From assembly GCA_012719355.1 (NCBI GenBank), contig JAAYAM010000081.1:1-38157 (forward strand): a stretch of DNA of 38,157 nucleotides. The letters are read 5' to 3'. Each line of letters starts with the position of its first letter. Positions within the stretch are counted from its first letter, which is position 1. The notes under the pieces are model-generated. The model did not search any database. It saw only the letters and a program-made list of their open reading frames with translations, and was not told the DNA's origin. The translations under genes and the position numbers were made by a program. Source of the stretch: Acidobacteriota bacterium. Lineage in GTDB: Bacteria > Acidobacteriota > UBA6911. Positions 33,444 through 35,410 of this stretch are shown here, one piece after another.

Positions 33444-33737
33444 ATGGGCGATCTGTTGCCGGACAACATGGCTGGAATTGCGGCCGAGGTAGCGGTTCTC
33501 ATCGTCAGCGGCGTAGTGCTTCTGGATCGCGTGAAGAATGCCACGCGCCAGCTGACCACCCGAATGGCGGCGCTGGAGCAATGGCGCGGCGAGCACGCCT
33601 CGAGCATTCAGCCCCACACGGTGTGCATCCTGGAGGACCGTCGTAAGGTGGATGAACGGGAATGGCTCGAGAGGATCGAGCGGAAGATCGACCGACTCGA
33701 AGAACGCATCGATACCCTGGCCGAAAAAATACGCTAG
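33444..33737 (+). CDS. Small membrane protein with coiled coil, holin-like
   Basis: This 97-residue protein has one membrane helix (about 10-28; MAGIAAEVAVLIVSGVVLLDRV) followed by a charged coiled coil that runs to the end (REWLERIERKIDRLEERIDTLAEKIR). Such an N-terminal TM plus C-terminal coil resembles small holin/XhlA-like phage proteins in general shape, although those often place the TM at the C-terminus. GAGG precedes the ATG by seven bases. With a lysozyme-like gene downstream, a membrane-permeabilising or anchoring role is a reasonable guess only. Confidence 0.65.
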   Translation: MGDLLPDNMAGIAAEVAVLIVSGVVLLDRVKNATRQLTTRMAALEQWRGEHASSIQPHTVCILEDRRKVDEREWLERIERKIDRLEERIDTLAEKIR

Positions 33738-33749
33738 CCGGAAAACCAG

Positions 33750-33853
33750 GCGGAACATCAAGCGGAACACCCAGAGGAACACTTTACTATATGCACATAC
33801 AGGACTTACAGTTCAGAGCGAAACAGCCGGCGGAACACTCAGCGGAACACTAT
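33750..33853. repeat. Five copies of a 12-bp repeat (consensus GCGGAACACTCA)
   Basis: Three units are in tandem at 33750-33761, 33762-33773 and 33774-33785. Two more are in tandem at 33830-33841 and 33842-33853. All share the core GGAACA; units 2, 4 and 5 are identical over GCGGAACAC. The 44-base gap between the blocks has no repeat. The units are shorter than CRISPR repeats or typical plasmid iterons. They may be protein-binding sites or slippage products. Confidence 0.6.
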
Positions 33854-33887
33854 TAAAGAAGTTTTTAGATAAGTATTTAAAGAAGGT

Positions 33888-33935
33888 AAAAAAAAGACAC
33901 ACACCTTTGCCGGCTAACGCCGGCGTGTGCGTGTC
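33888..33935 (-). terminator. Strong hairpin with T-run on the minus strand
   Basis: An inner stem GCCGGC-TAAC-GCCGGC (33909-33924) is extended by GACACACAC (33896-33904) against GTGTGCGTGTC (33925-33935) with an internal bulge. The eight-base A-run just before it (33888-33895) makes this an intrinsic terminator for minus-strand transcription, although the flanking genes are on the plus strand. Confidence 0.5.
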
Positions 33936-34096
33936 GCTGAAAATTCTTTCCTAAGAATCTATCAACGACAAACGACAAAATCACTCGCTGCCCGAGGTGA
34001 AGGCGCTCAGTTCCGGTCGAGGATTAACCAGGCCGTTTGCGACGGATGCCTCGAACCATACCTCGCAGATTCAAGGCAGTAAGAAAAGCTCAGCAA

Positions 34097-34123
34097 ACGC
34101 CCTTCTTTCGCGAGGAAGGGCGT
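34097..34123 (+). promoter_or_regulatory. Leader hairpin upstream of the muramidase gene
   Basis: ACGCCCTTC (34097-34105) and GAAGGGCGT (34115-34123) form a perfect 9-bp stem with a 9-base loop, 50 bases ahead of the start codon. No U-tract follows, so an mRNA leader structure is more likely than a terminator. Confidence 0.4.
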
Positions 34124-34172
34124 GCCGTCGGCGGGCGAGCTTCGACTGATTTTGTTGGGAGGGAGAATCTGC

Positions 34173-34754
34173 ATGAAGGAAATTGGAATTTTGAGGCATA
34201 TCAGAACGGCTTACGGCGCGCTGATTGTTGAGGCCGCGTCCCGGCACCGGCACCGGCCGGAGGTGTTGGCCGGGATCCTGATGCGTGAGACACAAGGTGG
34301 TTTGTCTCCCCTGCTGGATCGGCCGGGTCCCGAAGGCCGTGGAGACCGCGATTCAAAGGGACGGTACCACGGCTACGGTCTGTGCCAGATCGACGACCGC
34401 TCTTTTCCGGAATTCTGCGCCGGTCCTGACTGGAAGGATGCCGGAAAGAATATTGCAATGGCCGCATGGGTGCTGGCACGCAAGCGTGCTTTCCTCGCCG
34501 CCAGAACGCTCGGACTCAAGCTCACCGACGAAGACCTGGAAAGAGCAGCGATCGCCGCATTCAACGCGGGTGAGGGACGCGTGCTGAAGGCCATACGGGA
34601 AAATCGCGATCCCGACTCATGCACCAGCCATAGCAACTATGCCGCTTCCGTCCTGCGCTATGCAAATCTGTATCTGAAGCTGAGGACGGACGCAAAGAAC
34701 AACGTTGTGTTCATGCGTCAAGTAATGCCCGCTCCCGCGCGGGCGTTAACGTAG
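34173..34754 (+). CDS. Lysozyme-like / SLT-type muramidase
   Basis: The 193-residue protein has the lysozyme-like transglycosylase fold. The catalytic Glu is in ILMRETQGGLSPLL, the glycine-rich GYGLCQIDDRSFPEF matches the substrate-cleft segment, AAFNAGEGRVLKAI matches the family AYNAG motif, and YAASVLRYANLYLKL forms the closing helix. It should cleave peptidoglycan between MurNAc and GlcNAc. There is no signal peptide, as in phage endolysins that rely on a holin, in keeping with the small TM gene upstream. The ATG at 34173 follows GGGAGGGAG; an extension to 34122 is rejected. A 10-bp inverted repeat (34723-34732 with 34739-34748) overlaps the 3' end and may act as terminator. Confidence 0.83.
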   Translation: MKEIGILRHIRTAYGALIVEAASRHRHRPEVLAGILMRETQGGLSPLLDRPGPEGRGDRDSKGRYHGYGLCQIDDRSFPEFCAGPDWKDAGKNIAMAAWVLARKRAFLAARTLGLKLTDEDLERAAIAAFNAGEGRVLKAIRENRDPDSCTSHSNYAASVLRYANLYLKLRTDAKNNVVFMRQVMPAPARALT

Positions 34755-34792: not shown

Positions 34793-34821
34793 TTGTTTAT
34801 CGGAACCTGATGAGGTATAAT
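34793..34821 (+). promoter_or_regulatory. Sigma70-type promoter of the candidate sRNA
   Basis: TTGTTT (34793-34798, four of six consensus bases), a 17-base spacer and a perfect TATAAT (34816-34821). Transcription would start at about 34828. This is the best consensus promoter I see in the window. Confidence 0.6.
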
Positions 34822-34827
34822 TCAGCT

Positions 34828-34901
34828 CTTGGTAGGGTTTTTGTAACACTCCGTCGTTCGAGGACGCTGCGACTCCTGAAGGGGGGACGCAGCTTTTTTT
34901 T
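34828..34901 (+). ncRNA. Candidate small RNA or terminated leader (about 74 nt)
   Basis: The segment from the predicted start site to the end of the T-run contains no start codon with a ribosome site. It begins with a loosely structured part (CTTGGTAGGGTTTTTGTAAC), then a small CGTC...GACG hairpin around 34851-34868, and ends with a GC-rich terminator stem. It matches no RNA family that I recognise. It may be a free sRNA, or an attenuated 5' leader of the zinc-ribbon gene starting 143 bases after the terminator. Confidence 0.45.
34866..34901 (+). terminator. Textbook intrinsic terminator
   Basis: GCTGCG (34866-34871) pairs with CGCAGC (34888-34893), with further CTCC/GGGG pairing inside, followed directly by eight T residues (34894-34901). 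It is the only plus-strand hairpin in the window with a proper U-tract. Confidence 0.8.
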
Positions 34902-35043
34902 GTGCCTGAAAAAGAGGCAGGACATCAGGGCTCCTCCAAAGCCCTCACCAGGGTTACCGAAGTCCAATTGGTATTCCGAACACAACAAGAAGTGATCTGG
35001 CGAGAGCTTTCTTGCGGAATGCCCGCGAAGGAGGATATGAACT

Positions 35044-35301
35044 ATGGCACGAGGCGAAGCATTTGTGACGTGTCCCGAATGCGGTGCGCAATCACGTGTT
35101 CCCGTCATGGCGCTGCAGCGCGACAACTATCACTGCTCCCGATGCGGCAACCGCATCCCGCTGACCAATGTCAGCATGCCGGGAGACAATCAGAATCGGC
35201 CGCCGTTTCGCAGCAGATCGAAAAGCCGGTTCCAGAGGCGGCGACGCGCCAAACCGACCGGGCGCACATCAACAAAAACCACCTCCTCCGCGTCTCGGTA
35301 G
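35044..35301 (+). CDS. Small zinc-ribbon protein with basic tail
   Basis: The 85-residue protein has an N-terminal zinc ribbon (about 8-40): CPEC and CSRC pairs separated by 20 residues, ending GNRIPL. The C-terminal half is rich in Arg, Lys and Ser (RSRSKSRFQRRRRAKPTGR), suggesting nucleic-acid binding. The family is not recognised. AAGGAGG lies about 10 bases before the ATG at 35044. An ATG six bases earlier is in another frame that shows no such pattern. It follows the candidate sRNA and may be controlled by that terminator. Confidence 0.72.
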   Translation: MARGEAFVTCPECGAQSRVPVMALQRDNYHCSRCGNRIPLTNVSMPGDNQNRPPFRSRSKSRFQRRRRAKPTGRTSTKTTSSASR

Positions 35302-35410
35302 GGACGCGCTGGAAATAGTCCGGCACGGAAACGGAAGTGCCGGGAACAGATCGAATTCAACGATCGAAAGTTTGAAGAGCCCTGATGTCCTGGAGAAAGG
35401 ACAAGAGCAA

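Follow-up and report, generated by a model that had tools for sequence, protein, structure and literature searches.

The window, the whole 38,157-nt stretch of DNA analyzed here, is contig 367 of the 377-contig, 4.57-Mb genome of an Acidobacteriota bacterium. The segment of interest begins with a promoter, continues through a hairpin and a run of T residues, and is followed on the same strand by znr, a gene for a small zinc-ribbon protein (Table 1). A radical-SAM gene lies behind znr. Two genes lie upstream of the segment (33444-34754): the first encodes a small protein that matches XhlA weakly, short of the cut-off, and the second a transglycosylase-like protein whose SLT match was just under the cut-off.

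Table 1. Leader elements and the gene behind them, in window coordinates.
Feature	Position	Strand	Basis and remarks
-35 element, TTGTTT	34793..34798	+	sequence; TTG or ATG at the equivalent place in relatives
-10 element, TATAAT	34816..34821	+	sequence; TATAAT-like hexamer kept in relatives; 17-base spacer to -35
Expected short terminated RNA, ~74 nt	34828..34901	+	predicted from promoter and terminator; start inferred from the -10 position
Box A, GGTTTTTGTAA	34836..34846	+	alignments; kept in csp leaders close to their 5' end
Terminator hairpin, outer stem GCTGCG/CGCAGC, -17.1 kcal/mol	34866..34893	+	folding
Terminator U-tract, 8 T	34894..34901	+	sequence
Candidate box D, GTTACCGAAGTCC	34953..34965	+	picked by eye; pairing in the window unsupported by shuffles
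Likely znr ribosome site, AAGGAGG	35028..35034	+	sequence
znr, gene behind the leader; 85-aa zinc-ribbon protein with basic tail	35044..35301	+	ORF; Pfam zinc-ribbon matches all below cut-off

A preliminary description of this DNA had reported TTGTTT, a 17-base spacer and TATAAT, then a strong hairpin with eight T residues and no credible ORF between, and these features proved real. The arrangement TTG-20N-TATAAT occurs once in the window with both strands counted, compared to a shuffle mean of 0.06 and at least one occurrence in 6 of 100 shuffles. A run of seven or more T after a hairpin with a folding energy of at most -12 kcal/mol was found in the window at 34894 alone, the only strong intrinsic terminator there, and in none of 20 shuffles of the + strand. 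The 75-nt RNA folds with -25.1 kcal/mol (z -2.35). A stricter rule-based scan of the window called neither the promoter nor the terminator; its promoter rule was four of six positions per hexamer, of which TTGTTT scores three, and in our reading the terminator was probably missed because an internal loop interrupts the stem. A 61-aa ORF that runs across the segment (34810-34995) was rejected as a gene: its ATG precedes the -10 box, and its frame is not conserved. The frame is open in L013 and in the window; most relatives have stops in it or no start codon.

The segment was then compared with related genomes. A DNA search of 60 relatives gave matches in four genomes, the window's own included (G000, G001 in two places, G007, and G008), and every match outside the own genome covered the part from promoter to terminator. 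In all four matched places outside the window, a cold-shock gene (csp) begins about 90 bases past the terminator; its identity, tested on L014, is supported by a Pfam CSD match with an E-value of 2e-28. The -10-like hexamer and the outer stem are conserved, the letters of box A are the same in the window and the four aligned csp leaders, and the five outer pairs of the hairpin form in all 15 leaders of a wider alignment. By eye, candidate box D resembles GATTACCGAAGCC, found after the terminator of the relative L025, and would pair with box A apart from a bulge and a mismatch.

A covariance model, R1, was built from the csp leaders of four relatives with the window excluded, and it matched the window segment with 62 bits (E 1.9e-10). 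R1 matched 12 of 149 relatives at E ≤ 0.1, a count that includes L024 (E 0.04), which was dropped as a chance match inside a coding region; L030 was dropped as a contig-end copy of L028. A second model from 11 csp leaders, R2, scored 55.2 bits against the window and found 17 places in 12 of 38 genomes of the class at E ≤ 0.05. All 17 lie directly upstream of, and in line with, either csp (13 places) or znr (four places: the window, G003:C70, G005:C17, and G006:C82). These matches show that this leader and those of csp genes in the same Acidobacteria class are homologous. This kinship lay beyond what the preliminary description could see.

Over the phylum, R2 found matches in 12 of 396 genomes at E ≤ 0.01, and R3, a model of 15 leaders, in 13 of 396. 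A motif pattern run on named genomes gave 13 matches, eight of them in Acidobacteria MAGs. Seven of the 13 were inspected: L060 and L063 are csp leaders, and none of the five from other phyla (L059, L061, L062, L065, and L068) has a csp gene behind it; the other six Acidobacteria matches are loci already in the set. By the R2 and R3 counts and the pattern matches, the leader family is therefore narrow, being confined in essence to a single family of the class with a few further members. Beyond that main family, the model found the leader in one genome of another family, and L084, L113, and L089 were recognized by eye. The leader has no matching Rfam family: the Rfam search proposed as a check gave no match to it in the window or in 15 loci at the gathering threshold. 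At L021, two Acido-Lenti-1 RNA matches (1412-1457 and 1207-1252) lie beside the csp leader, and the first ends just before the -35 region of the leader.

Terminator-like sites were found on the sense strand in 25 of the 51 csp upstream regions of the class, a set that includes close relatives; for L095, which is among the 25, the call fell on a hairpin other than the homologous one. The other strand gave four and the shuffle expectation was 4.8; the remaining 26 regions are without such a terminator. The 142 nt between the end of the U-tract and the znr ATG in the window lie inside the 60-150 nt range used for csp terminator leaders of the class. A second group of csp genes (L086, L108, L109, L111, and L112) has another terminator, GCCGCC...GGCGGC followed by T5-T6, right after the promoter and without box A. 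At L010 (G000:C99), the csp gene of the window's own genome is preceded by a -10 box and by AGGTTTTGTGAAATTCCGG, a stretch resembling box A, but no hairpin with a U-tract is present.

Examination of the genes behind the leader pointed to how it came to precede znr. Relatives of znr were found in eight of 60 genomes, the own genome included, and all within one genus. G001, G007, G008, and G009 have csp between leader and znr, and in G000 (the window), G003, G005, and G006 znr follows the leader with no csp; the gene-order scan located znr in six of these eight regions, and G007 and G008 were read from search coordinates. At the window locus znr stands directly downstream of the leader, where csp is absent. 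Because znr and the radical-SAM gene of the window match G008 (the latter at 77% over 572 aa), where csp lies between leader and znr, the window locus is the G008 locus minus csp. The leader probably came to head znr when the intervening csp gene was lost.

An RpoB tree was made from nine genomes of the genus, G001 being absent as no RpoB was found there. G003, G005, and G006 grouped apart from G000, and forcing the four leader-znr genomes into one clade was rejected (p-AU 0.029). This rejection suggests, as the simplest reading, two separate losses of csp with the leader kept each time. Alternatively, there may have been one gain of csp in the other branch, as the placement of G000 is weakly fixed by the RpoB tree. 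A tree built from six znr sequences (69 columns) gave no resolved branching.

Pairing across the terminator was tested in the csp leaders. The part before the terminator pairs with RNA beyond the terminator more strongly than in shuffles (Fisher p 2e-7), in 16 representatives that, like the leader boundaries, were picked by hand before the test. In the same 16, pairing with the own partner beat pairing with the partners of other leaders, a level reached by 9 of 20000 permutations. In 15 aligned leaders, changes on both sides were seen in 7 of 19 pairs, reached by 0 of 500 shuffles, and the helix pairs in 89.1% of cells compared to 42.7 to 56.6% for slid controls, figures from an alignment that was fitted to the structure and so is biased towards the helix, with L021 and L022 off by one at box A. 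The conserved helix can form only in RNA that has been read through the terminator, and therefore read-through RNA matters for csp and is under selection in csp leaders. The helix was unsupported in the three znr leaders tested (window p 0.33, L027 0.93, L029 0.90).

In csp leaders of the genus, visual inspection strongly suggested an antiterminator, box A paired with the 5' arm of the terminator; this candidate failed against shuffles (Fisher p 0.36, 16 representatives). It was rejected, and therefore no switch that would free the terminator was found.

Since a model of csp leaders finds the window, and csp or znr is downstream at every R2 place, we consider it most probable (roughly 0.68) that the segment is no separate gene and opens a 5' untranslated leader of the csp type, which attenuates znr by its terminator. 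Put most simply, znr now stands behind the promoter and terminator of a csp gene. Transcription attenuation is the most likely mechanism. RNA polymerase would start at about 34828, make some 74 nt, and meet the intrinsic terminator, and a fraction of the transcripts would read through into znr. Read-through could be set by the level of Csp proteins or by temperature, acting via the U-rich 5' box and the hairpin; that the terminator functions, and that read-through is regulated in this way, we infer.

Csp proteins are the obvious candidates because CspD overproduction increases read-through at intrinsic terminators of E. coli, those of the tnaCAB and thiMD leaders included (PMC9765468, excerpt), because CspE and CspC bind U-rich RNA (PMC4520561, excerpt), and because box A is U-rich. 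The direction of any Csp effect could be either, since in Bacillus subtilis CspB and CspD favored termination at several sites (PMC8307031, excerpt). The anatomy still predicts a terminated RNA about 74 nt long, which may have a side function in trans. More tentatively, we suggest a leader family outside Rfam in which Csp proteins control the terminator of their own message, with the U-rich 5' box and hairpin as targets and a read-through-only helix stabilizing the mRNA; znr would have taken this leader over after the loss of csp, perhaps twice, and so come under cold-shock control.

An unlikely reading, though slightly ahead of the other rivals, is that the leader in front of znr is a relic: it would have belonged to a csp gene since lost, would regulate nothing and would just happen to precede znr. 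The absence of csp between leader and znr in the window fits such a relic, as does the missing support for the long helix in the znr leaders. Against it, promoter, box A, and terminator are kept in all four leader-znr genomes, and the full stem of the terminator is retained in the GC-richer L027 and L029. Two losses of csp, as the RpoB tree suggests, would also mean that the leader was retained each time.

The headline of the preliminary description was a free-standing small RNA. In this reading the RNA would act in trans, and the genes behind it would use other promoters. A full promoter and a strong terminator with no ORF between are what such an RNA would have. We nonetheless regard it as improbable because csp or znr is downstream at every R2 place, so that the element is not conserved independently of that gene, because the half of the leader past the terminator is also conserved in the alignments and in csp leaders pairs back to the 5' part, and because no promoter-like site between terminator and gene rose above shuffles in any of 24 leaders. 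The alternative raised there in passing, that the terminator attenuates the zinc-ribbon gene at 35044, is the one that the homology favors.

It is also doubtful that the leader is a structured RNA of the cold-shock type, an RNA thermometer acting on translation or stability, in which the hairpin and U-run are no working terminator. The best supported conserved feature of the csp leaders, a helix formable in read-through RNA only, would suit this reading, and E. coli cspA works as a thermosensor of this kind (cited in excerpts of PMC3738593 and PMC3890552). In most members, however, seven to eight T follow immediately after the GC stem, and exposure of the start site showed no consistent change between folding at 10 and 37 °C in 24 leaders. 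That the segment is the terminator of the upstream transglycosylase gene was rejected, because the promoter lies between them and the element recurs in relatives before csp or znr.

Several known systems bear comparison with this leader. The cspA thermoregulator (Rfam RF01766) likewise forms long-range structure in the 5' leader of a csp gene. RF01766 had no match in the window and none in the 15 loci at the gathering threshold; the csp relatives L014 and L025 reached 38.1 and 26.7 bits where the cut-off is 78, and their matches span the coding region and leave out the terminator. To our knowledge, the RF01766 family includes no terminator. The cold shock boxes in the 5' UTRs of B. subtilis cspB and cspC are likewise conserved boxes of csp leaders that set expression, a likeness by description and not by sequence, and the excerpted description gives no terminator there (PMC8307031). 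Attenuators of the riboswitch, tnaC, and pyr types share the order promoter, leader, intrinsic terminator, gene, but unlike them the leader here is without a supported antiterminator and is tied to csp genes. Agrobacterium C1_109596F was likewise first listed as an sRNA and later shown to be a csp 5' UTR; unlike the leader here, it is made only within the mRNA and was assigned to RF01766 (PMC3738593, excerpt). E. coli cspB and cspG are affected by Rho-dependent termination (PMC7815308, excerpt). In our literature search, which covered a minority of subscription journals, neither a conserved intrinsic terminator of csp leaders nor an RNA of this kind from Acidobacteria came up.

It is already known that Csp proteins alter intrinsic termination and that csp genes are controlled through their leaders, and a terminator built into csp leaders would unite both facts in one feedback circuit. 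Read as above, the locus also shows a leader passing from a gene to its neighbor, and a poorly studied class of Acidobacteria gains a regulatory RNA with a covariance model. The case further warns that a promoter followed by a terminator, when recognized purely from the sequence, may mark an attenuated leader and not an sRNA.

Two repeats were noted in this part of the window. Clustered direct repeats of the type GCGGAACACC, paired at 12-nt spacing, occupy 33738-33863. A 22-nt inverted repeat (34918-34939 and 35371-35392, 91% complementary) flanks znr on both sides, and its 16-nt core has two exact copies in the genome, which are these two sites.
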